Positions 3,489 to 28,656 of a stretch of 64,000 nucleotides of DNA are shown here, piece after piece. Source of the stretch: Melampsora larici-populina 98AG31 (Eukaryota > Basidiomycota > Pucciniomycetes > Pucciniales > Melampsoraceae). Position numbers and translations under genes: made by a program. Each line of letters starts with the position of its first letter. The stretch's first letter is position 1. A model generated the notes under the pieces. The model made no database searches. It was not told the DNA's origin and was given only the letters and a program-made list of their open reading frames with translations. Location: assembly GCF_000204055.1 (NCBI RefSeq), contig NW_006768798.1:62001-126000 (forward strand). The letters are read 5' to 3'.

Positions 3489-3800
3489 TACGGAATGCAA
3501 GGTGTGTCAAAGTGACAAATCAAATTTCAAAAAGTGAAATTTCAGAATCCCCGGGTCAGAAATTGACAAAACTGGATTAAACATCAGATTCAACCCAAAT
3601 ACTGGTCTGAAACCGCCTGTATTTGGGATGAAACCATACTTTCTGCCAGTTCTTACCGGTTTCCAAACCACAACCCTGAATTTGACCGCTGAGTTGGCAC
3701 TTTGGCACAAATGATAAACAAAAATTTCAAAAATCAAATTTCAACACTACAAAATTCACACACACGCAAAACAACTAAACACAAAAGTGATTCTGTACCA
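3489..3800. repeat. Left TIR of element A
   Basis: Complementary to 7823-8136 with scattered mismatches. It contains the family's conserved tract CAGAATCCCCGGGTCAGAAA. It also yields a spurious minus-strand ORF (3507-3737). Confidence 0.85.
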
Positions 3801-3879
3801 TAACTCCTTTGCACATCCACACAAGACAAGTTTACTGATAGCATATTATCATGGAATGGACCCACTAGCCTGCTGGGTG

Positions 3880-9841: not shown

Positions 9842-12668
9842 TCACATCATGCCTACCAAAGTGTTTGCAATTGGTGTAGACTTATGAATATCCTTAATTG
9901 ATTTATGGTATCCACCAAAAACCGTTTTCAGGTATCTTGCTACGGGGACAAATCCATACAACGCCATATTTTCCGGCTGAATACCGGTTATGTGACCATA
10001 CCCGTGCCGCCACAGATACAAGAATCTTTCACTAGAATTCAAGTTCCGCAGCTCTCTCTCCAGACTTCCCACGATAGGCCCTGAGGCGACACACATGCCT
10101 CCCAACAGATACGTGGTTACTTTCAAATCTTCCTGATTGAGTTCACCCGCATCTCAAACTTCCCTCGTCCCACGGAGTTGTTTGATAATAACTCCAAGAT
10201 GTTCCTCTCTTTGTTGCTTGAGAGAAACACAATTGAGAAGTATGTGTGATACTTCATCTTCTTCCAACATTGTTGTACCCGACCTTCTTTGCTGTTTGCA
10301 AAGCAGGCATGCTGATCTTCCCAATGTCTGGGCGGCCGTACTTCGGGTGTTTGCCTTATTATGACTGTTATATTCTGTAGTTGCTAGTGGTAAAATTCCT
10401 AGTCTAGCTTTGAGTAGTGTCAGAACCCCATCACGTAACACTACACGAAAGATAATATTTTCTGGGCAGAAAATTAAATTATTGATACACAAAAATATTG
10501 AGAGGCCAGGAGAAGGGCAAAAAATAAACAAAAATATGCATCTTGTTCCCTGCGGTGAGAGCTTCACTCTCCATATTTTTCCATATTTTTACAGTCTGTA
10601 TTGATAAGTGTACTAACAATAAACCTTCATAATCATCCAATTACAACCTGTAACAAGCACTGAAATTTGGCTCATTAGTGTTTAGAGAAACTTTTGATTT
10701 CTGAAAACACCTATAACTTTGTCAAATCTGCCTCAAAACACTCGATTTTAAGTGCATTAGAAAGCTTAACTCTTCCTCTCGAACTTTCATAAGATCAAAA
10801 TCTATGTAGCTAGTATGACAATCATTCTATGGATCTGTATGTACAAATGTATAAAAAAGATGATATCTTTTTTAGAAGACCAGCATGCTGTGTGGTCCTA
10901 TTATGAAATATTTGGAGGACAATTCCAGCTTATCAATGCACCCAAAATCGAGCGTTTTGGACCGGAATTGAAAAAGTTATGAGTATTTTCAGAAATCAAA
11001 AGTTTCTCTAAACACTAATGAGCCAAATTTCAGTGCTTGTTACAGGTTGTAATTGGATGATTGTGAAGGTTGATTGTTAGTACACTTATCAATATGGATT
11101 GTAAAAATACGGAAAAACATGCGGAGTGAAGTTCTCAACGCAGGGAACAAGATGCATATTTTTATTCATTTTTTGCTCTCCTCCTGGCCTCTCAATATTT
11201 TTGTGTATCAATAATTTAATTTTCTGCCCAGAAAATATTATCTTTCTTGTAGTGTAAGTAAGGGTATCTGAGTGCGGCTTTGTGAAAATTTCTGGTTAAC
11301 CCATATTCACATGTTTCATAGTTCATTTGTGTTAATGGGCCTTGTAACTTATTTTGGGTCATTTCTTTTGCCCACTGGTATGCCTTGACAGCAATCACAG
11401 CAATCATTTCCTCCTGTATTTCATATATGGAATCATGTTCACCATGTATGTTTATCCATGTCTCTGGTATTTTCTTTGGGTATGCTAGGGCCTGGGCTTT
11501 CAGACCTTTGAGGATCATAGGTGGAATGATTAATTCCTTTGATTCTTCTTCAGTAGGGTTTTGTGGCTTCTCCTTTGACATTGCATTGATTGCAGCTATT
11601 GCTCTGCCTGTCTCTGCTCTGGTTATTGATGCCCAGGTTTTCTTTTTACTACCTTGACCTTGATTGCACAGGATGTCAGATGCATCGGTGCTCATGGATG
11701 CCGATTTTGCGTGTATACGGTATCTAGCTGCTGCACATGCAGCAGCAACTGAAGGAACTCCTAGTTCCCACAAAAGTCTTACCAGGAATATTGTCTTGCA
11801 GCCCCATTTTTCACCAATGGCAAGAAAGAGTGATTTGTCAACCTCCTTTTGAATAGTGGATGTTCTTGTTTGGTTCATCCCAATCCATTCCCCTCCATAC
11901 AAACCTGTAGATAAGATATAGGTTTTGATGAGGAATGATTTTTCCGCCAAAGTGCGCTTAGTGTCTCTTAGTAAGCATGATTGTTGTCCAACCTTTTGGT
12001 AGACCTTCTTAGCCAGGGTTTTGGAATACTCTAATTCATTGTCATAGCTGATCCCAAGATTGTCACCTATGTCTATACCTAGGTATTTGTAGGAGGACTG
12101 TGCATATACTTTACCGTCTGTGAGATTGAAGTGGTTTTTGTTTTCACTGGGAAAATTTATGGGGTCACCATATTTGGCTAGGAAGGCTTGCCTAAGCTCA
12201 GGATCCTTCTCTCCGTGCATGACTACCGCACATTTGGCGTGACCAATTTTGAGGGTCTGCCATTTGGTGACCCATTCTGTTCTAAGTTGACACCCTTTTT
12301 CTAGGTCTTCAAGGTTGTCAAAGAATGCTGCAGCATCATCCGCATATAGTTTGCCTTTGTCATTGTAGCGGCCTTCCTCAATTCCCGGCACTAGTACACC
12401 AGGTAATTTGTGAAACAAATCATTTACAAAGATGATAAAGAGTAGGGGGGATAAAGGGCAACCCTCTTGGGTGCCAATGTCCATGTTGTATGAATTGGAA
12501 TGTTCATCTCCAACTCTCATGCTAAAGGTACTATTTTGATATGTAGTATCCAAGAATTTGATGATATCGTTAGGTATACCAATATGATGCAGTTTTTTCC
12601 AAAGAACCTCATGTGGGACACTGGGAAAGGCTTTCTTGACGTCTATGTATAAGACATAGGTTGGTTTG
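9842..12668 (-). pseudogene. LINE (non-LTR retrotransposon) reverse-transcriptase ORF, 5'-truncated and interrupted
   Basis: The upstream piece (11255-12668) encodes a reverse transcriptase: DVKKAFPSVPHEVLW is the first catalytic block, GTQEGCPLSPLLF the next, then the YADD catalytic box. After the CACTA insertion (10439-11254) the same frame continues (816 bp plus a 3-bp duplication keeps phase) with RDGVLTLLKARLG and a C-terminal Cys-x2-Cys...His-x4-Cys knuckle (CLLCK...HILLNC), typical of LINE ORF2 C-termini. An in-frame stop at 10154-10156 separates the last ~95 codons (10126-9842). The N-terminal endonuclease and early RT are missing where the ORF meets the end of element B and the N gap. 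It is non-functional: truncated, with an insertion and a nonsense codon. Confidence 0.88.
10439..11254. mobile_element. CACTA-type foldback element nested in the LINE
   Basis: The ends begin CACTACA(C/A)GAAAGATAAT, the classical CACTA/EnSpm terminus, with a 3-bp duplication TAA at 10436-10438 and 11255-11257. The TIRs are very long (about 300 bp each: 10439-10740 and 10960-11254), leaving a ~220-bp loop, so the whole element can fold into a hairpin. It has no transposase. Removing it and one TAA restores the LINE frame across the junction, which dates it after LINE insertion. Confidence 0.9.
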
Positions 12669-12677
12669 TACGGAATG

Positions 12678-12777
12678 NNNNNNNNNNNNNNNNNNNNNNN
12701 NNNNNNNNNNNNNNNNNNNNNNNNNNNNNNNNNNNNNNNNNNNNNNNNNNNNNNNNNNNNNNNNNNNNNNNNNNNNN
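12678..12777. other. Assembly gap (100 N)
   Basis: Exactly 100 N, the usual placeholder for a gap of unknown size. It falls inside the left TIR of element B: TACGGAATG precedes it and GAGGTGTGTCAAA follows, which corresponds almost directly to the uninterrupted TIR start of element A. Real missing sequence could be a base or two, or many kilobases if two element copies were joined. Confidence 0.98.
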
Positions 12778-12981
12778 GAGGTGTGTCAAAAGGACAATGC
12801 AAGTTTCAGAAAGTGAGATTTCAGAATCCCCGGGTCAGAAATTGATAAAACTGGAATAAACATCAGAGTTAACCCCAATACTGGTCTGAAACTGCCTGTA
12901 TTGGGGATAAAACCTATCTTTCTGCCAGTTTTCACAATTTCCAGACCACAACTCAAATATCAACCACTGACTTGGCACTTT

Positions 12982-13174
12982 CACTCCCAGCAAAAGGTAA
13001 TTTTCCCAAGGAAAAAATGATTACATTTAATGCATCTTTAATTAAAAATGCTGGTTTAATGCTGAATAATGCTGATTTAATGCTGATTTAATGCTGATCA
13101 AATGCATTTTCAATCATTTTTTGCTCTAAATGTATTCATTTTTTACTTGGGAAAATTACTTTATGCTGGTAGTG
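12982..13174. mobile_element. 193-bp CACTA-type MITE inside the TIR
   Basis: Starts CACTCCCAGCAAAAGGTAAT and ends with the near complement (reverse complement starts CACTACCAGCATAAAGTAAT). It is flanked by TTT on both sides (12979-12981 and 13175-13177). The other TIR reads straight through CACTTTGGCAC, so the empty site is known. The interior has a short repeat of AATGCTGATTT (about 13060-13100). The 3-bp duplication and CACT ends place it in the CACTA superfamily. Confidence 0.9.
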
Positions 13175-13466
13175 TTTGGCACAAATATTACATGAAAATT
13201 TCAAGAAATCGATTTTCATCATGTCAAACTTCACATATGTATAAAACAACAAAACCCAATACCTAACCGTACCACAAGTTCACCTTTTGGGTAAATGCAC
13301 ACCCATCAAAACCTAATGTGATCATTACTACGATCCCTACCAAGTCAACCATAGAGAAAATTTACAACCGATCACTATCAGCTTTCACCTATTCCACAAA
13401 GTCTAACTTGTCAAACCAACTCAACACCATCCGACTCACATACAACCCTTCTTTTCACACCACATC

Positions 13467-15668
13467 ATGAACAACACACAGCATTCTCAATGTGCCCTAT
13501 GTCCCTCAACTCTACGCTCTGGAGAACTCAGGATCTGTAGACCTTGCCTAGAGTCAAACTTAGAGCATTCCAATGCTCAAAAACCACCAGGCTTGCAATC
13601 TCAGTCTTCAACTCGTCCTCCTGCTCCTAAGATCGCCGCTGCGAGAGCTGCAGCCCAATCGATTGTTGCAAAATCAGTCTCTACTGGCTCTCATGTCAAT
13701 TCACTGCATCAAAAGAAGGCCGACCGGGACGCTTTCCGAGCTCAAGCTAGTAGCAAGCAAATGTATGGTCACCCAGCAGCTCCGAAACCAGCACCGTTCT
13801 CTACACCAGCTGGGCGTGCATGCTCTGTTGGATGGATGGTTCAGTATAACAACAAGCATCACACCCACAGTTTGGTCCGTGGAATTGTTAACGTCAATAG
13901 GAATCTTAGATCTATCTTAGCCCCAACAAAGAAAGCGATTTTTGACCTTTGGGACCACACACCGGTATCTGACAACAAATATCCTCAACCACCTCTTGAA
14001 TACGATCCTCAATGGTTTTCTCTGGCCAAGCCTGGCAAAGGTAAAATGCCACCCTGTATTTTGCACGATGATGAAGTCCTTGGTAATCACCTAGACACCA
14101 CCAAAGGCGAACCAGCTCTTGAACTTATCTTCCTTGCTGAAAAGTATTATTCCGCCCATCCCAATATCGCTAGACCTCTCACCTCAGCGACTACGGCTAA
14201 GACTAAAAGAGGCAAAAGAAAAGCTTCGGAAGAACTGACTATTTCAGATCAGGAGCTTGACGATTACTTCAGTAGTGACAATTCTCTCGGTACTGCTAGA
14301 TATTCATTGAGCAAAACCACTAGAAAGAAATCCAAATCTACCCCTTCAACTTCTACTCGAATCACCTCACCACCCCTAACCCGCACCAAAAGGGCTACAA
14401 CCTCAAAGTTGAACCGACCTGTCAGGCCTTTTAAAAGTCAGACCAATAATAATAGCTTAAGCTCTCTACCACCCCTTTTCACTCCTCCGCCCAACATGAG
14501 GCACTTAAATGCAATTGATGAAAGAGCACAAATCACCAAGGTAGTACCACCAAATCACACACGTAAGTGAAAGTTCACTGCACTGAATTCACAACAACAA
14601 TCTGACATTCCATTTTTGTTTGTAGTTGTAGCCTTTGATTTCCGTGCACCCATGGACATTTCTGCCTTTGGGCAAAACTTTCCAATGGCTGCACCACTTC
14701 CATCTAATCCTACATCAGATGGTTTTATTGACGGAAAGAGATTACACATGCAATCCAATTCCAAAGGAAAGCCCGAATGGAAGGCAGTTCAGTATTATTT
14801 CAAGGTTGATGAGAGTATCAAAATTAGTGAAGGCGGTTTCAGGATATGCTACAAAGCCTTTCGAAAGGATGCAACAGGTGATGTGATACCTATGGTGGCT
14901 AAAAAGCGGATGGTTTTGCCGTACCGTAAATCTGTGCTGGATGTTCACAGAGAATCCGGTGGAACTTATGCGGCGGTCGCAAGTGTTATTGAGCAATTCA
15001 AGCAAAAGGCATTGGAAGTTGATAGGATCAAGCTCTCCCCTCATCTAGCAAGAATAATTGGCGACATACGTGTAAGTCTAGGAACTAGCTTGATGTCTAG
15101 TATGATACTAACCATATTGAATATCGCAGATTGTAAATAACTTTCCAGTCTACTCCGGGAGAAGTATGAGTCCAGATTCAGCATATTTCTTTGAAGAACT
15201 GCTTGACGTCAAGAATTATTGCAAGTATACTAGCAATGTCAACTTTGAGTGTCGTGGGCCAGAAGGTGACATGACTCATGATGTGATGCATGCACTGACT
15301 CATTGGTCATACCAATACTATAGTGGCAAGCGGATAGTTGCTGACCTGCAAGGCGTAGGAAGTGTCCTTACTGACCCATTGATTGTGGATGATAGTTTGT
15401 AAGTCCCACTCCGTATTACTAATCCCTCTGATTGTAAGTAGCTGAGTATTTGAGTATTGCATTGCACAGGTTAACTTGGAGTGAAGGAAATACAGGAAAG
15501 AAGGGTTTGAGAAACTTTAAGGACCAACATAAGTGTGGTAAAGTATGTGATTTAATGGGTTTAGTGCGTCTTCCTGACTCAAAGGACTCTGATAATGAAG
15601 TTGAGATACTATATGGTAAATCTGCCTATCAATCTCACGTTCCACAAGGGACTCAAAAGTATCAGTAG
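13467..15668 (+). CDS. Alpha-kinase-like protein, cargo of element B
   Basis: Four exons fit: 13467-14562, 14626-15071, 15130-15398 and 15470-15668 (669 codons, all introns GT-AG, 58-71 bp). The C-terminal half matches the alpha-type (MHCK/eEF2-kinase) family: FFEELLDVKNYCKYTSN, then THWSYQYYSGKRIVADLQGV followed by LTDPLIVD, and the C-terminal GKKGLRNFKDQHKCGKVCDL, where His/Cys residues bind the structural zinc in this family. The N-terminus has Cys9-x2-Cys12-x11-Cys24-x2-Cys27, probably a small zinc finger. The middle (about 230-350) is basic, Ser/Thr-rich and probably disordered with nuclear-localisation-like KTKRGKRK. Expected to be a Ser/Thr kinase; substrate unknown. I did not check every catalytic residue. 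Its place just inside the TIR marks it as transposon cargo. Confidence 0.75.
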
Positions 15669-15725
15669 GGTCACATACTCTTTCCAATTCATTTTTAAAC
15701 ATACTATTGAGATAAAGAAAAGAAA

Positions 15726-17359
15726 TCATTGTAAATATTTTAGAACAGAACCGTGTGATTGGTGATATGAGTCAATCTTCCTTTCAAGCTGCTCATCATA
15801 TGTTCCAGCAATTGTAGGATGGTATCTTTCCCAAGCGTCATCTTCCATATCCCCCCTCATATCCATGATATTATTCATTGCTTGTACAACTGCTGATGTG
15901 ATTTGAGAGCACAAAGCATAGGCCACCACATGCTGACCATCAAGACTCATGGTCCCACCGGATTGACCAACAGTCCTAGCTTTATTTTTCTGCCTTGTAA
16001 TTGCTGCTTTTAAACTTGTCAACTTTTTTTGCTCTTCTAGTGAAAAAAGTGCATGACTAGTGTAATGATTAATGTCAGTCGCCCAAATCAACTCTACCAA
16101 ATCTGCTGCATTGATATCTATCTTAAACTCAAAATGCCCAACCACCATGATAAACTGAGCACCGACTTCAGGATGTTCCTTCTGGACATACTTCCCAGTC
16201 TTCTTTTCTTCCAACAATTCTTCTGCCCTTTGGGCCCGCAGTGCCAATCGTCTCTCTGGTGAAATGATATTGGCTATAGACATGTTGATCAGTTAATTAA
16301 ACACATGGTGACAAGTATAATACAAAGAAAACTCAACATGTGTAAGCATCCATCAAACAAAAGAACCCGGATGCAAACCCAGTGGCATCAAAGTCACAAT
16401 GTGGGGCATTGCGGAAGCCTCCTGAGGTCACAATGGTACTGGACCCTACAAACACCTGCCCATTGGGCGACTTTGTCCATTCCTTAGTCCCTGGAACTGG
16501 TTCTATGGAAGCCCAAGAAGGAGCACAAGTTTTGATTGCAACTTCCCTATTACTTTCATATGCATGTAAGCAGAGAGAGGAAGTCCTTTCAGCCTGGAAG
16601 TTATGAACCCATGGTAAATCATCTTGCCGCATTTCATCTTCCTTAAGTTTACCAAAGTCACCGCTAGTGCTAGAATTCTGTGCAAAAGGACCTGTAAAGC
16701 AGTCACGGTAGAGTGAACCTTGAGGTTCAATTGCAATAAGAAACATCCCTACTTACTAATTTTCTTTCCGTACTTGTGTTTGCCAGCTTGTCTGGTAGAC
16801 CGGAAACCAAATCCCCTCATTTTACCTTGCCTTTCTTCCTCAGGCAGAGCCATAACCGCATGATTGTCCGGAAGGTTTCCTCTACTCTCCGCATGTAAAT
16901 GCATGGTTCTAATAGCTCGACGGAAATCCTCCCAGAGCTGGATTGATGATGGATCAGTGCTAGAAGGATCCTACACAGTCCATCTTATTGTCAGCATATG
17001 TTACTTTTATGAGGAAGAGTCCAATGTACCTCATGATTGAATCTGACTACACAAATCAACTTGTTTGCCGCCAGATTCACCAACACCACTGTACCTCTGG
17101 TAACTTCCCTGATTTTAGGCTGTCCAAATGCAGGAACCCGGAAAACCTGACAATCTTTGGGAAGTCCAAACCTTACTCTAATACCACCGTCAATTTTCTT
17201 ACTTACAACTTCTCTAGTTTGACTTCTTTCAGCTTCACGATTTGTCTGACGTAAATTTTTATTCTTCACCTGTTTATAAAGAACTTTCCTAGCTGCCTTA
17301 TACTCAGCCCGCTTAACAGCTTGCTTTTTCTTCTTGGCATCAGATGGGTGCTTAGCCAT
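15726..17359 (-). CDS. Tet-like (TET/JBP-type) 2OG-Fe(II) oxygenase, possibly frameshifted
   Basis: Exons can be traced from ATG at 17359. The first ends near 17035 after VVRFNHE; a second covers about 16976-16750, ending AGKHKYGKK. A third (about 16746-16350) contains GGFRNAPHCDFDATGFASG, whose His-x-Asp is the expected Fe(II) pair. The last (about 16263-15726) has a double-psi beta-helix strand pattern, ADLVELIWATDINHYT. The basic N-terminus and the segment GLPKDCQVFRVPAFGQPKIR resemble rust Tet-like oxygenase proteins. Family members oxidise 5-methylcytosine or related bases in DNA; substrate here is not shown. Between exons two and three the frame shifts by one, so either an ~85-bp intron removes the AGKHKY segment or the gene is broken. 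A 5' intron appears to end exactly at the ATG (17360). Confidence 0.65.
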
Positions 17360-17919
17360 CTGTTTAAGATAAGTAAGTTAGTCATGATTAGGGTTACCTT
17401 GCTCAGAGAGATATAACATCTCACCCCAATGACCTGGCTCCAGAAAGAGGAAAACAAAGGTCAGTTCATGTGGAATGCTTCAGAATGATCACCCACATAT
17501 AATGAGAATGGAGTGGAACACACAGGACTTGGTGATATGTGAATCAAGAGGCTAGACCAGTTATCGGGGTTCCCCTCTGTCACCTATTCTTACCCCTAAA
17601 GAGTTCACATATCCTCAAGTCACTGTCTGCTACCACTCCACCCTCACAACATGAGATGAAAATCTGAAGCTATGAAAGTGACGGAAGATTGATGGAATAA
17701 TACCTGGATGGAAGCACTTGATTGATGTGATGATGGAAGTGACGGCAAAAATACTTATAGCTTTGATGTTTCTGCTACAAGTTTGACTCCAAACTTATAG
17801 AAAACCAACCCAGGGCCAGCTTGTGGTTTGCTGATCATTATACATGTGGTTGTATACTGTCAGCATGGCCAGAATGTGGGTTGAAGTCATGTGATCAGTC
17901 GTGGGCAAAGAATTGTCTT
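17360..17919 (-). promoter_or_regulatory. Upstream region of the Tet-like gene, conserved in element A
   Basis: 17360-17665 and about 17690-17890 are the parts retained in element A (6545-6857 and 5241-5440). Immediately before the ATG is an apparent 5'UTR intron: donor GTAACCCTAATC near 17400 and acceptor TTAAACAG abutting the start codon. No TATA element was assigned. Confidence 0.5.
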
Positions 17920-18189
17920 AATTCTGTACTTGCAAACTTGGTTCCATGACATGTATTGCCATTACAAAATCGTTTAAAATAAAAATAAAAGTACAAGACC
18001 ACATTTTTTAATTCTGTACTTGCAAACTTGGCTCCATGACATGTATTGCCATTACAAAATTGTTTGAAATAAAAAAAAAAGTACAAGACAACATTTTTTA
18101 ATTCTGTACTTGCAAACTTGGCTCCATGACATGTATTGCCATTACAAAATTGTTTGAAATAAAAAAAAAGTACATGACAGCATTTTTTT
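17920..18189. repeat. Three tandem copies of a 90-bp repeat
   Basis: AATTCTGTACTTGCAAACTT begins at 17920, 18010 and 18100, exactly 90 bp apart, with a few substitutions and an A-run of varying length in each copy. It lies between the Tet-like gene and the downstream end of the next minus-strand gene and gives a spurious minus-strand ORF (17895-18086). Confidence 0.92.
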
Positions 18190-18219
18190 CATTCAAGATA
18201 AGCATATTTTATTTCATGA

Positions 18220-19480
18220 TCAACAATTATGATTGTACCAATCATCTTCTTCACCCAATAACTGAAGACTGGCCCCTTGTACACCCACTTCGGTACAATA
18301 GGGTACAGGAAGTAGCAAACGGTTACTTGATATCCTGGTACTCCAGTAATAACCAATGTCATAAGCCAAACATACTGCCAAGGGTACCTTTTGCACATGC
18401 ACACCATCAAACTTGGCATTAGAAACTGAAGTATCACCTTTGAAAGAGTTGTAATTCCTAGACAAAAGCCTCATGATGTAGTCGTGAGTCCTAATCCATA
18501 TGGTTTCTTTGATTAATACGTTTCTGGCCTTCTGTATGTCAGCTGCAGCCTTCACAACAGCTAAAACAGTTGGAGCCGGAGTATTCTTGCAGTCCCTTGA
18601 AGTGAGCATTAAACCTCTGACACCACTGATTAAAAATGATCCTAAACAACCCCAGGTAAATCTAGATTTCTTAACAAGTTTGATTTGACTATCAAGACGA
18701 TTATAAAGTTCCTTATCTTCATTTGAGCTTTTTCCTTTAGGCATTTTCGCATATAAATCAAGTATCGCCACACCAAGGATCACATTATGAACATTTGTAG
18801 CAAAGTAGTTAAGATTGATTAGACTTGCAGCCTTCTTCATGGCATTTGAATCTTCAATTAAGTGTACTCCGGCTGATCCAAGCTTTGGGCTGGTTTTGAG
18901 AAGATATGTAACAAATCGAAAGCTGTTCTTGTAATCCGTCAAGTCGGGTTTGGCCAAAAAATCTTCATGACGTATGACTTCGTCTGCTGCTACTGCAATT
19001 GCATCCTGAAATAAACGAGACGCCTCGCGCTGATGGTATTCAGAAGGATATGCAAGTGGTCTCATTAGTCAATAGATTTGGAAAGCTATTGAAGTCTTGT
19101 CTTTTGGAGGATCATCTTCCGGTCGGAATAAGATAGGGGTCCAAATTTCGGAACTGAACAGCAGCTCTCCTTGCTGAGGTGAGAAGAAATCAACACCTTT
19201 GAAAATACTGAATCAGTTTCTCAGTCAAATGTACCATATACCATTCCAAGTACTCACCTTGTTGTGTCAGGTTTTGAATCCATTCCCCCGGAGACATCAT
19301 CTCAGAGTCTGAAAAGGTAACACCCTTTGGAAGTCCATATCTTGGGTTGACAAGGAGTGGAATATGTTTGGATCTCAACATTAACAAATTTAAAACAAGG
19401 TCGCGTCCCTCTGCATATTTTGCACGTGAGATTCGGATGGGAAACATCTTGAAAGCTTCCATAAAGACCTCTTCGTCGAT
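18220..19480 (-). pseudogene. Unknown element-B ORF, likely C-terminal part of a split gene
   Basis: I do not recognise this protein. On the minus strand an open frame starts at the MITE border (about 19480; IDEEVFMEAFKMFP) and runs to about 19258. A 55-bp intron (GTGAGT...AAAG, about 19257-19203) then gives GVDFFSPQQGELLFSSEIW, after which a TGA at about 19066-19068 interrupts the frame. Beyond it 281 codons are open (19065-18220), starting MRPLAYPSEYHQREASRL and predicted mostly helical. No transmembrane segment, no known motif. The preceding gene ends exactly at the other border of the MITE, so both probably formed one gene. With a nonsense codon and an insertion it is unlikely to be intact, though translation from the internal ATG at 19065 is possible. 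Confidence 0.5.
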
Positions 19481-19482
19481 TA

Positions 19483-19679
19483 GGGTATACAAAGTTTGTT
19501 CTGGAAATTTCCAGACATCTTTTTCCAGAACACCAGAAGTCTCCTGCTCTTCTGGAAAACATGCAGTGTTGGTTATTCTAAGGTTCAGAATACCATAAGT
19601 TCAGAACACACCCCAAAAAAAAACTTCTGGTGTTCTGGGGAAACACTTCTGGAAATTTCCAGAACCATATTTGTATACC
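19483..19679. mobile_element. ~197-bp MITE with TA target duplication (Tc1/mariner-like)
   Basis: The ends are GGGTATACAAA and its complement TTTGTATACCC, each flanked by TA (about 19481-19482 and 19680-19681). Subterminal TTCTGGAAATTTCCAGA is itself palindromic and occurs in both arms, and the interior repeats TTCTGG/CCAGAA several times. It sits exactly between two minus-strand ORFs of element B, creating the TAG that ends the upstream one. Confidence 0.8.
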
Positions 19680-21194
19680 CTAGATGTTGAAGAGGGAGCA
19701 AGGCATGACTCTAGGAGTGTCTTCCGGATCGGTGGTCATGTGTGTATCAGGCTCAATCATTGGTTTGTCAGTGGGCAGATCAATGTCCATAGCATTTAAG
19801 TCCAATTGGTTCAGGTCGTCCTCAGGCAATTGGATGTCATTGCTTGAAGATGCAAGACATTTGTCCACCGGGTTCGTAATCTGTCCTGTTGAAGGTAATT
19901 CGGCAGATTCTTTGGGTGGTGCAGAGTTCTCAAGTGCTGCATTGGGATTGGTAGAGGCCGGTCCCAAGCTACTTGCTGCCTGGGTGGAAGAGCTAGCTCC
20001 AGTTGAAACCGTTTGGACAGTGATGTTTGGATCAATTCTCGGATCAATGGTTGAGTTGGAGGTGGGATTCGTGATAGGATCAATCTGATGTGTGACTGGT
20101 TCAATAGTTTTGGGCGAACAAGAGTTGGAATGAGTTGGACCTGAAGAAGTTCCAACTTGAGTACGTGAAGGAGATTCCGTTGAAGTTGATTTTTCAGTCT
20201 CAGTTTGAACCGAATTTTTCTCAGGAGCTGGCTGACTTGATTGTTCATTCGAAGAAGGTCCAAGTTCATTCCGTGGAGGAGATTCCGGTGGAGATTCTTG
20301 ATTCTGAGTTTGAAACGGATTTTTCTCAGGAACTGGCTGACTTGGTTGTTCATTAGAAGAACTTCCAGCTTCATTACGTAGAGGAGTTTTTTGAGTCTGA
20401 GTTTGTACGGGATGTTCATCAGGGACTGGCTTGTTTTGTTGTTCATTCGGAAGAATCGTAGAGTCCAAGTTGTCTCTATCATTTGGTTGGTCCAAGTCAT
20501 CTTCTTCCTCCTCAGGGTTTTCTTCTTCACCATCATCTCGGACCGGATCAAGTGCAAGACGTGGTCTTTTTTTGGTGGGGACTTGGGAGCCGGCATAGTT
20601 CTTGACACCACTAGTCTGACGGTCCGATCGTCGAATGACAGTAGGATCAGGCGTATCATCTCGTGTTAAGTCAATGACAATCACCTTGTCGCTTGGTGGT
20701 GGATGAATGCCTTTACGCAGATCTAAGAATGATGTATAAATGTTAGCTAAGGAAATTAGAGTTGATAAATTGTGATCTTCAAAAGACATACTGATAACTC
20801 TGGCCTCACATATCGCAGCAGCAGCCTCAATGTGTTCGATGGCATCATCCGGGATGTCAGGACCAGTCTGCAGCTGACGGAGCACAGGAACCGGATGGGA
20901 GCAATTCCGCTCGAACTCAGCCTTGGTCACACGCCGCAATTCCGCTTTGGACAATCCAGATGATTGTAACTGAGAGAGAGGTCCAGGAACCGTAGGAGCT
21001 TGTGGAAAGGCCTGATGTGAGGGTACGGACAATACTTTGGCTGCATCTGGTTTGATTTGGGTATTGGAGTCATCCAAATCTTGGTCTTCGGAGTCGGTGT
21101 CCATATCCATTGTGGATGGAGTAGGTGGACGGTCACCAGGAATAATATCCTCACCAATTTGGGTTAAAACATTGGTATGGGTAAGATCCTCCAT
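19680..21194 (-). CDS. Disordered protein with SUMO-interacting motif (element B cargo; probably truncated)
   Basis: 504 codons are open from ATG 21194. The start fits: acidic N-terminus MEDLTHTNVLTQIGEDIIPG. An apparent intron (GTATGT...TTCTTAG, about 20790-20723) lies inside the open frame; splicing joins ...ARVI to LRKGIHPPPSDK. Just after is KVIVIDLTRDDTPDP, a textbook SUMO-interacting motif (hydrophobic core followed by acidic residues). Then come a basic KKRPRL (possible nuclear localisation signal), an acidic run and three ~33-residue repeats (units beginning EQQNKPVPDEHP, EQPSQPVPEKNP, EQSSQPAPEKNS). The rest is Pro/Ser/Thr-rich. The stop arises at the border of the MITE, so the natural C-terminus probably continued into 19480-18220. 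Function unknown; nuclear, SUMO-linked role is inferred only. Confidence 0.6.
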   Translation of the reverse strand: MEDLTHTNVLTQIGEDIIPGDRPPTPSTMDMDTDSEDQDLDDSNTQIKPDAAKVLSVPSHQAFPQAPTVPGPLSQLQSSGLSKAELRRVTKAEFERNCSHPVPVLRQLQTGPDIPDDAIEHIEAAAAICEARVISMSFEDHNLSTLISLANIYTSFLDLRKGIHPPPSDKVIVIDLTRDDTPDPTVIRRSDRQTSGVKNYAGSQVPTKKRPRLALDPVRDDGEEENPEEEEDDLDQPNDRDNLDSTILPNEQQNKPVPDEHPVQTQTQKTPLRNEAGSSSNEQPSQPVPEKNPFQTQNQESPPESPPRNELGPSSNEQSSQPAPEKNSVQTETEKSTSTESPSRTQVGTSSGPTHSNSCSPKTIEPVTHQIDPITNPTSNSTIDPRIDPNITVQTVSTGASSSTQAASSLGPASTNPNAALENSAPPKESAELPSTGQITNPVDKCLASSSNDIQLPEDDLNQLDLNAMDIDLPTDKPMIEPDTHMTTDPEDTPRVMPCSLFNI

Positions 21195-21379
21195 TTGATG
21201 ATGGTTGAATTATTAAGTTGGTTGGTGTTCAACAAAAAAAGTTGATGATGCGAGTGGATGAGTTGAATTTGAAATGAAAAATTGATTGAATGAGAGGGAG
21301 GGAGTGATCAAAAAAATCAATTGATATCTTTTTCAATCTCAATTGCATACAGGTTGTGTATACTTTGAGTGGGAGAAGG

Positions 21380-22122
21380 GCCTTTCTCACTTACAGGCCA
21401 CCTAAGCCTAGGTGGTCTTCCTATTAAAGTTTGTCCACCTAGGCTTAGGTGGCCTATTCCTCCAGTCGATCGACTGGAGAAGCGGCCCCGGGACCGGTAT
21501 GTACACTTGACCGGGCCCAGGGCCTCTCTCTCCAGTCGATCGACTGGAGCCTAGGTGGCCCTAGGGTCTGTTCTCCAGTCGATCGACTGGAGAACGAGCC
21601 CTGGGACCGGGATAGAATAAAGCCCCGGTCCCAGGGCCATTCCTCCAGTCAATCGACTGGAGAAGCAGTCCACCTAAGCCTAGGTGGCCTGCATAGCCTC
21701 AGGATAATTGACCACCTAGCAGGTCAATTATCCTTCAGCTAGGTGGTCAAACCTTGAGAGGTAGACCACCTAGGCTTAGGTTCCCTCCTCCAGTCAATCG
21801 ACTGGAGGAGAAGTCCTGGGACCGGGGTAGATGAAAGCACCGGTCCCAGGGCTTGTGTTTCTCTACAGTCGATTGACTGGAGCAATTCTCCTAACGCTAG
21901 GTGGTCTGCCTATCAAGGTTTGACCACCTAGCATTCAAAATATACTTAACCTAGGTGGTCAAACCTTGATAGGCAGACCACCTAGCGTTAGGAGAATTGG
22001 CCCTGGAACCGGGGCTTCCGAGTCTGCCGCTCCAAGGTTGTTTTTCCCAGTCGATCGACTGGAGAAAAGACCACCTGGGCCTACATAGGTGGTCTCTCCA
22101 TCAGAGATTGACCACCTAGGCA
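21380..22122. repeat. Palindrome array of element B
   Basis: Contains several copies of CCAGTCGATCGACTGG or one-base variants (near 21463, 21533, 21572, 21643, 21788, 22047), interleaved with CCACCTAGGCTTAGGTGG-type near-palindromes, and the tract TAGGTGGTCAAACCTTGATA in both orientations around 21900-21980. Spacers carry GGTCCCAGGGC strings. These are the same two palindromes that build the array in element A, so they are a conserved non-coding component of this transposon family. No genes here. Confidence 0.85.
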
Positions 22123-22386
22123 TAAGTTTTTTTCTATTTACTCTTCTATGCTTTCCTTTGTTATTTGTCAAGAGATCTCTTTCAGATAAACCCCACTGGG
22201 ACCGGTGGACTATACAGACCAAGGAACAGCAGTAGTTAGGATTCCCATAAAGGGTTTGATAAGATGATAACCATGGTTGTGGTGATCAATGCAAATCTTG
22301 GTGAGTTTTGTCCCCACAAGCGCCCCACATTGGAAAATCCATTTGTATTTCCCCACACGGATTTTCCACGCATGTCATAGCCTGGT
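22123..22386 (+). promoter_or_regulatory. Upstream region of the SNF2 gene
   Basis: 264 bp between the palindrome array and the chosen ATG at 22387. No specific element recognised. The true start could also be the internal Met at about 22531 (MTPQVVCAG), nearer the first recognisable domain. Confidence 0.3.
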
Positions 22387-25107
22387 ATGACTTGCATTGA
22401 GTTCGGTGATCAGATTCTCATATATCAACATGTGTGTCAACCAGTAAAGATGTTCAAGTTTCCACTTTTTGCATCCATTAAACCGTATTGCTCATCACCC
22501 AATTATCATTCACATCATCATATATATCACAGTATGACTCCCCAAGTTGTGTGCGCTGGTTGTGTTACCTTCAAAATTGTCACCTTGACGTCATCGGCTA
22601 CGGAAGTACAGCTCCCTCTCAATTCCCCAATACACATATTCATTACTGATCAACAACAGGAGTACCCACAGATCAGACTGGTAATTCCGAATGGGAAAAC
22701 TATTGGTTACTTACCACCACATCTTCAATCATTTCTACTAGAAATACTAGGAAATCAACAGGGCAAACATAAATCAAAGCCAGCTGGCGGTTGGAATCCA
22801 ACTGCCAACCAATTAGCATTCATCAGCAGCTCTGTCCAATCACTTGAAGTCTCAGGAATGATTCAATTTGAAGTTACTACCTTGATATTTATCAAATTCT
22901 GGAAAATGCCAGACTTCAAGGATATTTTAGTGAAATATGGCATCAGACTCGAGACTCCTCAGTCCTACAATCCTCACAATCATAATAACATCAGCCTGTT
23001 TCCTCCACCCACCTCTATGTCACCCAAGTGGAAGGCAGCCTACCCAGACTTGATCAATCTTCCAACTGATGCTATTTCCATGCTTAGAGCCATTCCCAGC
23101 GGATCAGATGTGCAACCAGTCAACCAATCTCTTCTATTATCCTCCCAGCTCAGACCTCATCAACAACAGGGCCTGGGATTTTTACTTGATCGAGAGGATC
23201 CGCACAATGCAGCATTCAACTCCTTTTGGCACTCCAAAAAGAGCGCAGAATTCACTATCTGGACAAACCTTCTCTGCGGCGAGTCATTCATTGCCACTGA
23301 TCAACAACCAGTTCCAACCAGTCCTCGAGCTTCAATTCTGGCTGATGACATGGGGCTTGGAAAATCAATTCAGACTATAGCACTGATTGCACATACTCTC
23401 CAAGCAGCATTCAGTTACGAGACGAATTATCAAAGAGAAAGCCCCAAAAGTCAACTTAGAGGTTCACATACCACTTTACTCATCTGTCTCAAGGGGCTTA
23501 TGGACAATTGGGAACGTGAAATCAAGCTTCATACAAGACAACCGGGACTCAAGGTTATGCGCTGGCATGATACAAATAGAACCAGCCGTGCACCAGAAGA
23601 ATGGTATTCAGCAGACATCATCTTGACAACATTAGGTACTCTTCAAAATGACCAACTTGATAGTCTTACATATGCAACCAAGTGGTACCGTGTGGTAATT
23701 GACGAAGCACAGTCAGTGTATCTATTGGCTTGTAAAATTTCAGTTCAATTACTGATATTCCACTTTGTTTAGTATTATCTGAAATGACAATTTTTCCAGC
23801 AGATGTGTCACTGCATTGAAAGCTGTCAATAGATTGTGTCTGACAGGAACACCACTGCACAACAAACTAGGCGACCTTCAGATGATGCTGAGGTTTTTAC
23901 ACGTGACCCCTTTCTACAAGGATTCGGTTTGGGATACACACATTGCTCAACCGGTTCAGCGTGGAAATTTGGCCCCAGTTTCTAGACTTTTGCGATACAT
24001 TATGCTTAGGAGGACCAAGGACAGTCACATATTTGATTTACCACCCATTAATCACACCACTATTATTTTAGATATGCATAAAGAGGTTAAGGATGTTTAT
24101 CAAACTCTATATCAGAATTTCTTACGGCAGTTTGGAGTTGAAAGGAAGCAGAAATTTCAAGGTGGTGAATTTTTCAAACAACTCACCAATCTCAGGATGA
24201 CTTGCAACCACCCTCTTTTATTCAGGCAAATTGAACAGGGTGTTGATGCAGAAAATCAACCCATTAATCTCATTGAGCAAAAACTGGGTATAAAATTACC
24301 GGATGAAAGAATTCATAACAGCAAGGTAAGAGATGCTATTCCAACGGACTGGAAGCTTAGCCCAAAGATTGCATACTTGGTTCACATGCTTCAGAAGAAA
24401 AAATCACATGGTGGTGGGAAGAGTGTTATATACACTCAGTGGAAGAGCTTTATTGATTGGTGAGCTCCTTCAAAACCTAGCCCCATTATATCATCAAATA
24501 GCTGACTTCATTCCCAGGATCATCATGGCTTTTGACAACTCTGGCATCACGTACCGTCAGCTGCATGGGGACCAGTCCACCTTTGAGCGTACTTCTCAAC
24601 TCAATTCTTTCACCAAGGACCCAAATGTTGAAGCATTTGTCGTATCAATAGAGGCTGGTGGGGTAGGTTTGAACATGACATGTGCGGACGAGGTCTATTT
24701 GATGGTAAGTCAGGCTTTTACATTGGATCTGGGAACACTGATGGAGCAGTGGTGTATCTTCAGGATGCACATTGGAACCCTCAGGTAGTGCAACAAGCTG
24801 TGGACCGCCTTCACCGAATTGGTCAGGCCAAGCCTGTCAGAGTATTTCATGTAGTTACTGGACAGTCAATTGAGCAGCATCTTTACAATGTGAGTGTAAC
24901 AACAAATTCCTGTGAGTGAATGTAGCCCTAACACCTAGCTCTCACTTGTTCCAGGTTCAGAAGAGAAAAGCTGCCCTGGCAAAGAGAGTGATTACATTAA
25001 CTGTCCCTACAGAGGAATTGGAGAAGGCTGAAGCACTGCGTGTGGAGGAGTTTCCAACAGGGGATGTATCAGATTTGGGAGATCCCAATCAATGCTACCG
25101 CAATTAA
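22387..25107 (+). CDS. HIRAN-SNF2 helicase-like ATPase (Rad5/HLTF-like), cargo of element B
   Basis: Five exons fit: 22387-23711, 23800-24459, 24518-24704, 24764-24889 and 24955-25107 (816 codons). Residues ~90-120 (IRLVIPNGKTIGYLPPH) look like a HIRAN domain, which binds DNA ends in HLTF/Rad5. SNF2 motifs: Q-like LRPHQQQGLGFLLDRE; Walker A ILADDMGLGKSIQT; Walker B VVIDEA, with the intron in this motif giving DEAH or DEAQ; motif III LCLTGTPLHNKLGDL; then GGVGLNM and QAVDRLHRIGQAKPVRV. The RING finger found between the lobes in Rad5/HLTF is not seen, so no ubiquitin-ligase role is expected. All catalytic motifs are intact. It would act as a DNA translocase on chromatin or fork DNA, perhaps in transposition; that link is inference from its position. 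Confidence 0.85.
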
Positions 25108-25388
25108 GATCTAACATATGGGATGCTGGTTTCTGCTACCTTTTTGTAACTGTCTCTATCAAGTCTCTTGTTTCTCAAAAGATAAACCAATACACAAGCG
25201 GTTTTCCTGATAAAGGTTGCTTACCATAATAGCATAAATGAATTTTGGTTTGTAAGGTTTCAATTTGTGCATTTCAATTCAAAGAGCTCAATTTAAGAGA
25301 AATTCATTAAAGCATGTTTCAAAGTCTAGTATGTTGAGCTAGTGACAAATAAAGCGCCTACAAGAACAAATCAATTTGATTTTAATCA
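25108..25388. other. Convergent 3' spacer between SNF2 and transposase genes
   Basis: AT-rich 281 bp with no ORF; presumably holds both genes' 3' UTRs. No clear polyadenylation signal was assigned. Confidence 0.4.
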
Positions 25389-26968
25389 CTAATTAAATAC
25401 CACATCGGATTCACCTGGCTGTGGTGCAAAGGGAGTACCAGTCCAGTCATACTGTCTCAACCTTTCTAATACAAAATTGAAAATCTCCCAAACATTCGTA
25501 GTTCTCAAATCATCATAATCAAACTCCATGTCAGACATGACTTTGTCAACTACATCCGCAAACCACTCAGGTGTCTTAGTCCATAATCTTTCTTGATCTG
25601 GATAATCCTCCTCAATGATCTGATCAACTTTATAACTGGGAACTCCTATCAAGTAATCTGTGCCAGCAAACTCGTCACCTGGGTTGTAATAGCAATAGTT
25701 AGCACTACATCCGGTTGGTAACCTAGAGCGGTTGTCTCTACGCCTTTGAAAATTGTTGGCATGGTCTTTGTAGGTATCTAAAGCTTCTTGTATGGCGGGT
25801 ACGTAGAGCTGGAGGAACAAGAGTCTAAAAGAAAGATGAGTTAGTACAAGAGCTACTCAAAGAAACACAAATCACCAACTCACCTTTGCATTGGATCATC
25901 AGGATCATAATCACCATCCGCAATCCTTTGAGCAATCTCGTCTTTCAAGTGACCAGTCACTGCATTTTGCATCTTCTCCCAAGCAGATTCAATCTTAGTA
26001 TTACTAGTAGAGGGAACATATCTATGGTACTGGAAACCGGGGGTTTCAGTGCCGTATTGCTGTCCAAAGTACATTTGATGGCCAGCAAGGTCGATGGTCT
26101 CAGTACCTTGGTCAGTGGTGAGTTTTTGAGGGATGCCTCTGTGTTTCTTGACAAGTTCAAGATACCATAAATCAACATGTCGTGGGTCACTGTTGGTGAC
26201 ATGAGCATGGAGACCCAAGAGCTTCCAAGACCAGCAGTCGATGAAACCGTAGATTCCAATTCCGTAAGGCATCAATTTGTTGTGTCCGTCATAAGCCCAA
26301 ACCTGGTTAGGACCACCCGCATAATACTGCCGCCTTTTCAGTTTGTGGGCCGCTCGGACTTTGACCATGTCAGGATTGATCACTTTCAGAATGGCCGATA
26401 TAACATCACTAGCAGAAAAGAGAAAAATGAAGAGAGAGGAAAAGTCAGCATAGGTTATCAGGGATGTGATGAAGTAGTATATTAATCACCAATGAATATG
26501 CAAGTTATGATCAGCCATGAGCTTTCGCTTGATACTCTTGATACCCAGCACATGACCAAAATCTTCTTCCATTTGGTTAATCAATTGCACAAGCTCTTCG
26601 TAAGTAATTTTGTTGAGATCAAGATCATCTCGTTTGCGATTAAGCTGAAGTCTCTTCTCATGACGAGCCAAGGTGGAACGGCTGATGACAATTTTGTTTT
26701 CATTCTTCATTGAGATGAGGGTTCTTTTTTGATTGTAACTTTTACCGTGCTTGTCTAACACAGCCTTCGTGACAGTCTCTTCATCATACTCCACTCGGTG
26801 TTTCAAACCCCATGCCTCAATACGTCGACGGATGGTACGAACACTGATCTTGATTTGATGACTTCTCCAGATGTTGTTGGATACCGATTGTGCTGTCCAC
26901 TTGTTGTTATGAGCTTGTTCTAGGATAGGGTGTAAGATATCATCTGAGATTTCAATTCGTCCAGGCAT
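25389..26968 (-). CDS. Integrase-type DDE transposase of element B
   Basis: Three exons fit: 26968-26490, 26408-25884 and 25824-25389 (479 codons). The N-terminal half holds helix-turn-helix-like DNA-binding segments (WTAQSVSNNIWRSHQIKISV, then RTIRRRIEAWGL). The catalytic core has the first Asp in NQVWAYDGHNKL, the second in KLTTDQGTET and the Glu in STSNTKIESAWEKM, with 40 residues between the second Asp and Glu, as in retroviral/IS3-like integrase cores. All three acidic residues are present and the frame is open, so it may be active. The family resembles the fungal integrase-core proteins, perhaps the IS3EU-like group; I cannot assign it firmly. It lies next to the right TIR and is the best candidate for moving both A and B. 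Confidence 0.85.
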
Positions 26969-27209
26969 GATAACAGTAGTTATATGATGAAATGGAGAGA
27001 TTGATGATTGATAGAATGGATTGGATAATATGTGTCAAAGTGACAAGTGAATGTGGTTTTTGGATGGTATGAGGACGTTGCTGGGTGAGGATCGAATTGG
27101 GGAGGGAGAGGTAGGTTAAGAGTGATTATTTCTGCAAATTGTGATTAGGTTTTGTGTCTTCCCGAGTAATGATTGTGCGATCTGTAGGTTTTGGCTGCTG
27201 AGGTTGTCC
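26969..27209 (-). promoter_or_regulatory. Upstream region of the transposase gene
   Basis: Sequence between the transposase ATG and the inner edge of the right TIR. No element recognised; any promoter probably lies here or in the TIR itself. Confidence 0.3.
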
Positions 27210-27522
27210 TGTGGTACGGTTAGGTATTGGGTTTTGTTGTTTTATACATATGTGAAGTTTGACATGATGAAAATTGATTTCTTGAAATTTTCATGTAATA
27301 TTTGTGCCAAAGTGCCAAGTCAGTGGTCGATATTTGAGTTGTGGTCTGGAAATTGTGAAAACTGGCAGAAAGATAGGTTTTATCCCCAATACAGGCGGTT
27401 TCAGACCAGTATTGGGGTTAAATCTGATGTTTATTCCAGTTTTGTCAATTTCTGACCCGGGGATTCTGAAATTTCGATTTTGAAATTTCAAGTTGTCACT
27501 TTGGCACATGTCGCATTCCGTA
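27210..27522. repeat. Right TIR of element B
   Basis: 313 bp, inverted copy of the left TIR, ending GCATTCCGTA. It is intact, unlike the left one. Flanking sequence GCTGACAG does not match the left flank. Confidence 0.88.
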
Positions 27523-27540: not shown

Positions 27541-28656
27541 GCATGTGAAGGTAAAGAAGTAAGTTTAGCCTGTGTCAGGGTAAAAAGCATCGAGGTATAC
27601 TGATTGGACATGTTTTCATCAGATCCTCAACGCGATGACTTCGCAGGACCGAAAGACAAACAAGTATTATTGGGGTCTCTCTCTATGCGACGAGGAGTGG
27701 GAAGCAGTCGAGGCATTGAATCCTATTTTGGAGGTAAGTCATTCATCAACTATTGTATATCTTTTTGTGATCCATTCTCATTGATTTGATTCAATCAACT
27801 CCAGGTTTTTGAAGATGCCACTTTTCTAATGCAGGGCGACTTCTCCTCGGGTTGTGAGGTCCTTGCTGAGTACCTCCGCATCGGGAAGAAACTTGAAATG
27901 TTCAAGGAGGCCTCCATGTTCCCTAGTATCAACCGAGCACTTGAAGAGATGCTCTCCTGGCTCAAGAAATACCAGGACGAGGCTTTAGACACCAAAATTA
28001 TCCTCATTGCCATGATTCTTAACCCTCACAGACGATTGAAGTTCATCCAGGATTTTTATCCAACCGCGGTCGATTCAGCAAAGGACGCTGTTCATGAGGT
28101 TTTTGGAGATTGGGTGTGTGACTGGAAAGCCAAAGTGGCCAAAGATACAATAATTATCAAAACAACAGTCCCTACTGCGATTGATGAATTTGACATGTTT
28201 GCCGCTGGGTCTGATCATATTGCACCAACATCTCAATATGAACATGAGCTGGTGGATTATTTGTCAGGGAAGTTTGGCATTTTGCCTGATGAAAAACCTT
28301 TGGACTGGTGGAGAGTAAGTCACTTTCTTTGATTGGACACTTGAGTCTGAGAGTGATAAGCTAAACTTACTATGTGACTGCGTCAGAAACATGAGAAGTC
28401 ATTTCCTGTGCTGGCTTCGATGGCACGGGACTACCTGTCCATTTCGGCAACTACTTGTTGCGTTGAGCGCTCCTTCTCCTCGGCCGCAGATGTTGCTGCG
28501 CCAGGTCAAGGTTCCATCCTTCCGAACACTATCACTCGGAAGGTGGGATGTAGAGAGTGGATTAAGTCCGGTGTCGTACCCACGGATAAGTTTCAAGATG
28601 CGGTCAAGTACCTTAAAGAACACGAGGCACAGCTGAAGAAGAAGGTCAAGAAGTAA
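27541..28656 (+). pseudogene. hAT-family transposase, 5'-truncated
   Basis: A frame open from about 27541 reads TDWTCFHQILNAM then KYYWGLSLCDEEWEAVEALN up to a GT-AG intron (27734-27804). It continues VFEDATFLMQ and runs to 28314; a second intron (28315-28386) leads to the last exon (28387-28656). The C-terminus DEKPLDWWRKHEK...FPVLASMARDYLSI...CCVERSFSSAADV is the hAT dimerisation domain. The N-terminal zinc finger and first catalytic Asp region are missing because element B or the misjoined contig begins directly upstream. No stop codons interrupt what remains. Non-functional through truncation. Confidence 0.88.

Follow-up and report, generated by a model that had tools for sequence, protein, structure and literature searches.

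A five-gene mobile element of the poplar rust Melampsora larici-populina with features that indicate a giant IS3EU transposon

What occupies positions 12669 to 27522 of the stretch of Melampsora larici-populina 98AG31 DNA analyzed here (the window: 64,000 nucleotides, contig C34, 62001-126000), and what might hold its genes together? The region is one mobile element, in which terminal inverted repeats (TIRs) of ~320 bp surround genes for an alpha-kinase, a TET/JBP-like dioxygenase, a protein that we call X, a Rad5-type SNF2 ATPase and a D,D40E transposase. The first-pass annotation had proposed a single giant TIR-bounded transposon with a DDE transposase and at least four cargo genes, and this holds, as the gene set recurs at ten loci of the genome searched (98.3 Mb, 243 contigs; copies are named by contig). 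The TIR pair that it placed around the genes is also found: the inverted arms match at 91% for 12782-12981/27309-27508 and at 95% for 13175-13285/27201-27311, and the termini are TACGG on the left and CCGTA on the right. A 100-N assembly gap (12678-12777) lies in the left TIR after its first nine bases, and this TIR is further split by an insert (12982-13174) that is not present in the aligned copies of the element. With splice-aware gene models, guided by diverged copies, the features are as follows:

12669-12981, plus strand: left TIR, outer part, beginning with TACGG; homology of the flanking reverse transcriptase (RT) sequence stops here
12982-13174, no strand assigned: insert of 193 bp resembling a miniature inverted-repeat transposable element, CACT..AGTG, with TIRs of 53 bp and flanked on each side by TTT; splits the left TIR
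13175-13285, plus strand: left TIR, inner part, 95% to 27201-27311
13467-15668, plus strand: alpha-kinase, 610 aa predicted, 6 exons; PF02816, E=1.3e-33
15726-17359, minus strand: TET/JBP-like 2OG-Fe(II) dioxygenase, 481 aa predicted, 4 exons; PF20515, E=8.4e-15
17918-18187, no strand assigned: a 90-bp unit repeated three times in tandem, located between TET and gene X
18220-21194, minus strand: gene X, ~846 aa predicted, with uncertain exon borders in its N-terminal half; no Pfam match
21394-22137, no strand assigned: palindrome/hairpin array between X and SNF2, two genes transcribed away from each other
22534-25107, plus strand: SNF2 ATPase, Rad5-type, 769 aa predicted, 5 exons; PF00176, E=1.8e-49, and PF00271, E=1.3e-18
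25389-26968, minus strand: IS3EU-type transposase, 479 aa predicted, 3 exons; PF24764, E=4.7e-16
27201-27522, minus strand: right TIR, ending in CCGTA

The recurrence of the element was followed with its left TIR, which is matched at no fewer than 40 places (at least 40, with 40 of 80 candidates scored), and with exons of the five genes. The exon searches gave 97 transposase, at least 150 TET, 34 X, at least 107 kinase and 36 SNF2 matches, with 150 of 202 candidates scored for TET and 150 of 152 for the kinase. After the weakest were dropped, 62 of 97 transposase, 90 of 150 TET, all 34 X, 86 of 107 kinase and all 36 SNF2 matches were clustered with a linking distance of 26 kb, at which some clusters also include a neighboring element. 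All five genes lie together at ten loci (C34, which is the window, C105, C86, C32, C19, C75, C12, C13, C28 and C71), in the order kinase(+), TET(-), X(-), SNF2(+), transposase(-) or its reverse, and ten loci in one order rule out chance co-location. A further ten clusters have X or SNF2 and, in total, three or four of the five genes (C100, C1, C43, C14, a second one on C28, C2, C27, C62, C22 and C18).

Seven diverged copies, which belong to a sister family and were picked for having all five genes (C86 nested, C19, C28, C12, C75, C71 and C13), each have both TIRs, a perfect 6-bp target duplication and the five genes in between. Other copies of the TIRs thus do enclose these genes, as had been anticipated, with duplications of 6 bp instead of the 8 bp then assumed. 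The duplications in the sister family are CCGGTC (C19), TGTGAC (C28), GTAACT (C12), GGTCCA (C75), GTTATA (C71), AATAAC (C13) and CTATTG (C86 nested); elsewhere they are ATGATT (C27), AATAAC (C7), GCTGAG (C86 outer), CAGAAC (C67), GACTTG (C24), GTATTC (C44) and CATACT (the small C105 copy), and C53 retains 5 of 6 bases. Over both families, a perfect 6-bp duplication is present in 14 of 16 assessed copies, one copy has 5 of 6 and the window copy has none; the five-gene C105 copy is outside this tally, and C32 showed one end only. Wherever copy ends were found they read TACGG..CCGTA, except for one right end, TACGC, in C7, a copy that is mostly N. The sister copies free of N measure 17,099 bp (C28), 18,189 bp (C75) and 34,875 bp (C13), and those containing N measure 16.7-17.0 kb (C19, C12 and C86 nested) and 29.4 kb (C71). 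Short derivatives with both ends (C67, C24, C53, C44 and small C105) span 1.0-2.6 kb.

The clearest case of movement is found in C86, where a 16.7-kb five-gene element of the sister family, flanked by CTATTG, interrupts the X gene in a sibling of the element in the window. This outer sibling is 96-99% identical to the window element in long blocks, and the window's own X gene is the uninterrupted version of the insertion site; a 13-bp overlap of the alignments at the site consists of the 6-bp duplication plus chance bases. Several blocks of C28 are 97-99.8% identical to C12 and to the nested C86 copy, others being 80-97% identical, and the blocks of highest identity therefore place movement recently on the family's own time scale. 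The C27 copy has kept the kinase, TET and part of X, and carries, in place of SNF2 and the transposase, a long open reading frame (ORF) that by eye resembles a retrotransposon. The five-gene transposon family is real and mobile.

In the window, the left border could be fixed from the interrupted flank. A 200-base piece of the left flank occurs at nine places in the genome, itself included; the other eight are 74-79% identical, and all eight RT matches stop at query base 190-192, equivalent to window 12667-12669. The TACGG at 12669 is therefore the true insertion border. The flank contains an RT ORF (PF00078) at 11219-12670, which is cut by the left end of the element and has eight more related places in the genome. 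On the other side, a hAT-like transposase fragment (27790-28329; E=2.4e-4, below the Pfam cut-off) adjoins the right end, and its stretch has 31 matches in the genome, itself included.

The predicted products agree with the Tet-like, SNF2 and alpha-kinase identities first assigned, through the Pfam matches given above. In the transposase, the catalytic-type residues D200 and D259-x40-E300 are in place, which confirms the D, D-x40-E arrangement read initially. Its N-terminal matches are to helix-turn-helix domains only, with a weak IS3 match (E=0.13), and the integrase zinc domain (HHCC) gave no match at E<=0.1. The recombinase is integrase-like, as had been supposed, and its match to PF24764 points to IS3EU. 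Taken together, the TACGG..CCGTA ends, the 6-bp duplications and the rva_4 integrase core indicate a DNA transposon of the IS3EU group, and one of giant size within a kind described only recently.

The TET gene product is predicted to be a TET/JBP dioxygenase, from PF20515 and from the H-x-D...H iron-ligand residues H279, D281 and H369, which are identical in the window copy, C28 and C13; comparison with solved structures, by sequence and by profile, gave no match. A separate gene at ORF 15729-16292 was considered and rejected. In the second gene model this ORF is the last TET exon, and the Pfam match then reaches the end of the family.

The SNF2 protein finds its best Protein Data Bank (PDB) match in Rad5 (E=3.9e-39). 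It contains the stretches DDMGLGKS, DEAH and QAVDRLHRIGQ, and the kinase contains ADLQG and GNTGKKG, all of which we take to be active-site-like motifs. The HIRAN domain first attributed to the SNF2 protein was not confirmed, with one of four members matching below threshold (E=0.14). No RING finger was matched in the Pfam scan of the predicted 769-aa protein, and a profile of its N-terminal region had no match in the PDB.

X has a SIM-like stretch and a basic patch in its N-terminal half and a conserved C-terminal half. The hydrophobic-acidic SIM-like stretch is present in seven of eight X sequences, including the window, and in weak form in C13. It reads VIVIDLTRDD in the window and VKVIWI followed by DD in six of the seven other copies, and a KR(P/T)RL patch comes after it in all X copies compared. 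It may be a SUMO-interaction motif (SIM), and as far as the recurring stretch goes it fits the early description of X as a SIM protein, a putative name.

The coding sequences carry signs of constraint. The ratios of nonsynonymous to synonymous substitution (dN/dS), from Nei-Gojobori counts on codons aligned through the window proteins, are well below 1 in most informative comparisons. Examples are C28-C13 (TET 0.15, kinase 0.21, transposase 0.27), C28-C19 (SNF2 0.29) and C28-C71 (X 0.32). When the window element is compared with the sister family, synonymous divergence has reached saturation or come close to it, and dN is 0.34-0.73. For SNF2, all sister-family pairs with dS >0.3 give 0.15-0.37 and the window versus nested C86 gives 0.13; values of 0.41-0.86 occur only in near-identical pairs, one of which gives 0.14. 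The transposase gives 0.23-0.43 in all pairs with dS >0.03, and more than 1 in two near-identical pairs that have one synonymous change each. TET gives 0.14-0.21 in six pairs with C13 and 0.26-0.33 in six others, and the kinase 0.21-0.39 in eight pairs. For X, the ratio is 0.27-0.40 in six pairs with dS of 0.47-0.62 and 0.25-0.49 in three more diverged pairs; pairs with C13, other than that with nested C86, are saturated. Several copies contain in-frame stops.

A link to cytosine methylation is suggested by the mutations of the copies. C-to-T changes (either strand) were scored against the majority base of the copies, with C13 omitted from two of the three sister-family blocks. In the sister family they affect 42/389 TCG, 21/636 CCG, 9/323 ACG and 5/274 GCG sites, and 89/15,732 non-CpG C/G positions. 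With singletons only, the counts are 20/277 for TCG versus 97/16,072, one of the three blocks having 1/17 for TCG versus 43/3,192, and in the window's family they are 9/118 for TCG versus 18/5,669. This concentration at TCG is as expected of methylated copies. Hypermutation of repeats at TCG is described for Puccinia and Microbotryum in section 4.2 of PMC12730594, where TET is proposed to counter it; low repeat-induced mutation in M. larici-populina is cited in a passage of PMC5295586. The TCG-biased changes would therefore make the elements targets of the process that the TET enzyme is predicted to oppose.

We consider it quite probable that these observations are jointly explained by a giant IS3EU element with four co-retained cargo genes, most likely in an anti-silencing role. 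Insertion with a 6-bp duplication, and the retention of the alpha-kinase, TET/JBP, X and SNF2 genes together between the TIRs, are seen directly in the anatomy of the copies. The D,D40E transposase would act on the ~320-bp TIRs to insert the element with this duplication; the reaction itself and cut-and-paste movement are presumed by analogy with the IS3EU group. As the leading candidate mechanism, we propose that SNF2 and TET work jointly against silencing: the SNF2 motor would open element copies that are silenced or bound by nucleosomes, on which the TET enzyme would oxidize methylcytosine. The outcome would be expression of the transposase and cargo despite cytosine methylation. X may tether to chromatin via its SUMO-interaction-like stretch, and the alpha-kinase may be a regulator.

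Several observations weigh against this explanation, in whole or in part. The CpG observed/expected ratio is 0.42-0.62 in element copies versus 0.36 and 0.56 in the rest of the window; it is not clearly better there, and therefore no protection from methylation is seen. X gave no credible match in Pfam (E<=0.1), NCBIfam or the PDB, by sequence or by profile, and single-sequence AlphaFold models were unusable (mean pLDDT 36 for the X exon and 32 for the SNF2 N-terminal exon). Many copy pairs have high dN/dS ratios, in the range 0.46-0.93: for TET, four closely related pairs reach 0.51-0.71 and all five that join C71 to close copies reach 0.74-0.93, while the kinase gives 0.53-0.71 in all pairs with C12 or C75 and 0.56-0.63 in nested C86 versus C28 and C19, and X 0.46-0.91 in all seven pairs with dS <0.35. 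These may stem mostly from frameshifts, misaligned exons and young decaying copies. The high X ratios make constraint on X less certain than that on TET, SNF2 and the transposase. Finally, the window copy lacks a target duplication (GGTTTG on the left versus GCTGAC on the right) and its left end touches the assembly gap, which leaves either a rearranged copy or a wrong scaffold join at the gap.

A more elaborate form of the anti-silencing explanation is a self-contained machine, in which SNF2 and a SUMO-tethered X would escort TET to methylated copies and a TET-X-SNF2 cassette would be exchanged between families by recombination. Exchange is suggested by the mosaic nature of C13, which differs from C28 by dS of 0.05 in the kinase and 0.10 in the transposase, but by 1.07 in TET and 1.63 in SNF2. 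Other copies are mosaics as well: C19 and C71 are only 0.013 apart in SNF2 dS, yet each is 0.39 from C28. We put this fuller scheme forward tentatively, as a possibility with the odds somewhat against it.

Alternatively, the cargo could serve transposition or repair, with the Rad5-like SNF2 aiding repair or replication across the donor sites of a 15-18 kb element, the kinase regulating and TET secondary. The Rad5 structure match speaks for this, as does the fact that the first named fungal SNF2 relative outside Melampsora is an HLTF/RAD5 protein. The missing RING match and the sub-threshold HIRAN, however, do not support a Rad5 ubiquitin-ligase role, and a compact IS3EU element of the same genome does without SNF2. 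We regard this alternative as unlikely.

The compact relatives also bear on where X and SNF2 came from. One of them, on C120, is 5,124 bp long, has TACGG..CCGTA ends and the duplication CGCGAG, and encodes the transposase and kinase without X or SNF2; another, on C9, holds the transposase, TET and kinase, again without X or SNF2, and its ends were not found. Proximity was tallied for the best 62 of the 97 transposase matches, against 22 X and 27 SNF2 places that remained after fragments and same-locus repeats were removed; the 35 transposase matches left out were short or weaker, with two fragments at 65-67% among them. X or SNF2 lies within 26 kb of 19 of the 22 transposase matches with at least 63% identity (18 within 12 kb). 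For matches with at most 48% identity the count is 1 of 40, and that one is a neighbor of the giant C75 copy. In this genome X and SNF2 thus stand beside only one group of similar IS3EU transposases and are therefore probably later additions to an older transposase-TET-kinase element, judging from identity groups without a tree.

Homologues outside the genome were sought among 5.8 billion proteins, by a search that does not pick up distant relatives or proteins of different length. Within that limit, the X exon has four homologues, two from Melampsora americana and two unnamed, and the transposase exon has seven, all unnamed. The SNF2 N-terminal exon has 63 matches, of which four are close (three M. 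larici-populina proteins and one metagenome protein); MELLADRAFT_84184 of strain 98AG31 is an SNF2 homologue. The other matches are ~30% identical over part of the query.

X and SNF2 could be passive hitch-hikers without a role, in an otherwise ordinary rust IS3EU of the published type, in which transposase, TET and kinase already occur together (PMC12730594, in the part cited here). The compact relatives on C120 and C9 fit this, and so do the X ratios of the closely related pairs. Passive cargo would decay, however, and SNF2 and X persist in two families that are at or near synonymous saturation; dN/dS is 0.13-0.37 in all SNF2 pairs with dS >0.3, and the nine measurable X pairs with dS >0.46 give 0.25-0.49. 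Hitch-hiking is accordingly an improbable account, and the co-retained, putatively anti-silencing cargo is preferred.

A Maverick/Polinton-like element is scarcely credible: its 15-20 kb size, long TIRs, 6-bp duplications and integrase fit, but no polymerase B, capsid, protease or packaging ATPase appeared among the Pfam matches of the 10 ORFs and five gene products scanned, and the TACGG..CCGTA ends are those of rust IS3EU (PMC12730594, as far as cited). An assembly artefact, or a patchwork of insertions unrelated to each other, has just as slight a chance, the 100-N gap, the absent duplication and the left RT flank that is not continued on the right notwithstanding, and for the family it is refuted by ten loci that share gene set, order and orientation and by seven copies with perfect duplications; both outcomes that the first-pass annotation had named as fatal, copies without these genes and a mosaic, failed to appear.

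Some features of the repeats deserve mention. The array at 21394-22137 is dense in palindromes and hairpins, with repeated CCAGTCGATCGACTGG and CTAGGTGGTC, and may possibly be a shared promoter or binding array. Both motifs also occur in four of the five short non-autonomous derivatives (C67, C24, C53 and C105, not C44), and the second one, CTAGGTGGTC, occurs many times in C28, C75, C19 and C12 as well. A second IS3EU-related TIR lies in the window at 3500-3703 (84% match), followed by the same palindrome array at 3.9-4.9 kb, and 3500-4950 is probably a short non-autonomous relative of the element.

Of eight clusters that consist of X alone, two are weak matches and six are short fragments interrupted by stops. 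The six fragments (C9:74k, C46:54k, C6:1832k, C13:817k, C17:987k and C30:468k; 70-72 aa, 50-51%, with stops) have no other cargo matches beside them, and perhaps derive from an independent repeat that captured part of X. At C46:329k, C28:615k, C68:288k, C11:703k and C34:813k, a kinase (60-62%) lies close to a partial TET (47%), with no transposase match in the cluster; these pairs perhaps belong to another transposon lineage with TET and kinase.

The element extends the rust IS3EU with TET and alpha-kinase to elements with a chromatin-remodelling ATPase and a conserved X, and makes a whole anti-methylation kit on fungal transposons a testable idea, beyond one gene near another. SNF2 (PF00176) and alpha-kinase (PF02816) are reported, in the part of PMC5295586 cited here, as enriched in wheat rusts versus eight other basidiomycetes including M. 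larici-populina. At least part of the poplar-rust SNF2 and alpha-kinase genes are transposon cargo, so transposon ends should be checked in other rusts before such numbers are read as host adaptation.

How, then, does the element compare with known systems? With the Rad5/HLTF branch, its SNF2 protein shares the ATPase core and its best solved match, but it differs in having no RING found, an N-terminal region of its own of ~200 aa and a HIRAN match below threshold. Mavericks/Polintons share the size class, long TIRs and an integrase-type recombinase. They also make 6-bp duplications (PMC10045372, as far as cited), whereas the element here has IS3EU ends, and polymerase B, capsid and packaging ATPase were not found in it. 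The TET-bearing KDZ (Kyakuja-Dileera-Zisupton) transposons are likewise fungal DNA transposons with a TET/JBP gene. A rust Dileera example has 8-bp duplications (PMC12730594, in the part cited), whereas the element here makes 6-bp ones and has a PF24764 transposase, which rules out filing it with KDZ. IS3EU elements generally have TA..TA ends and usually 6-bp duplications, according to the passage used from PMC10045372.

Among the closest relatives are the TET-bearing IS3EU of Pucciniales. Rust IS3EU with transposase, TET and alpha-kinase have already been described (Kojima 2025, Biology 14:1741, PMC12730594), and according to the parts of that paper on which we draw they occur in seven species including M. 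larici-populina, with TAYGG..CCRTA ends, 6-bp duplications, TIRs of more than 30 bp, and TET placed between the transposase and the alpha-kinase, the latter two opposed. In the portions of the open-licence literature covered, IS3EU with alpha-kinase were found only in this paper, and no description of SNF2 in IS3EU was found. The main text of PMC12730594 has no occurrence of SNF2, and mentions 'helicase' once, about Helitrons; an entry for this very family may exist in its Table S1 or in Repbase. The combination of cargo, which the first-pass annotation did not know from any described family, was therefore known for its part of transposase, TET and alpha-kinase. The present element shares with these relatives the transposase type, the ends, the 6-bp duplication and the TET gene between an opposed transposase and kinase, and differs in its size of 15-18 kb and in the extra SNF2 and X genes between TET and the transposase. 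It is this part, SNF2, X and the size, that looks new in comparison with the main text of PMC12730594.

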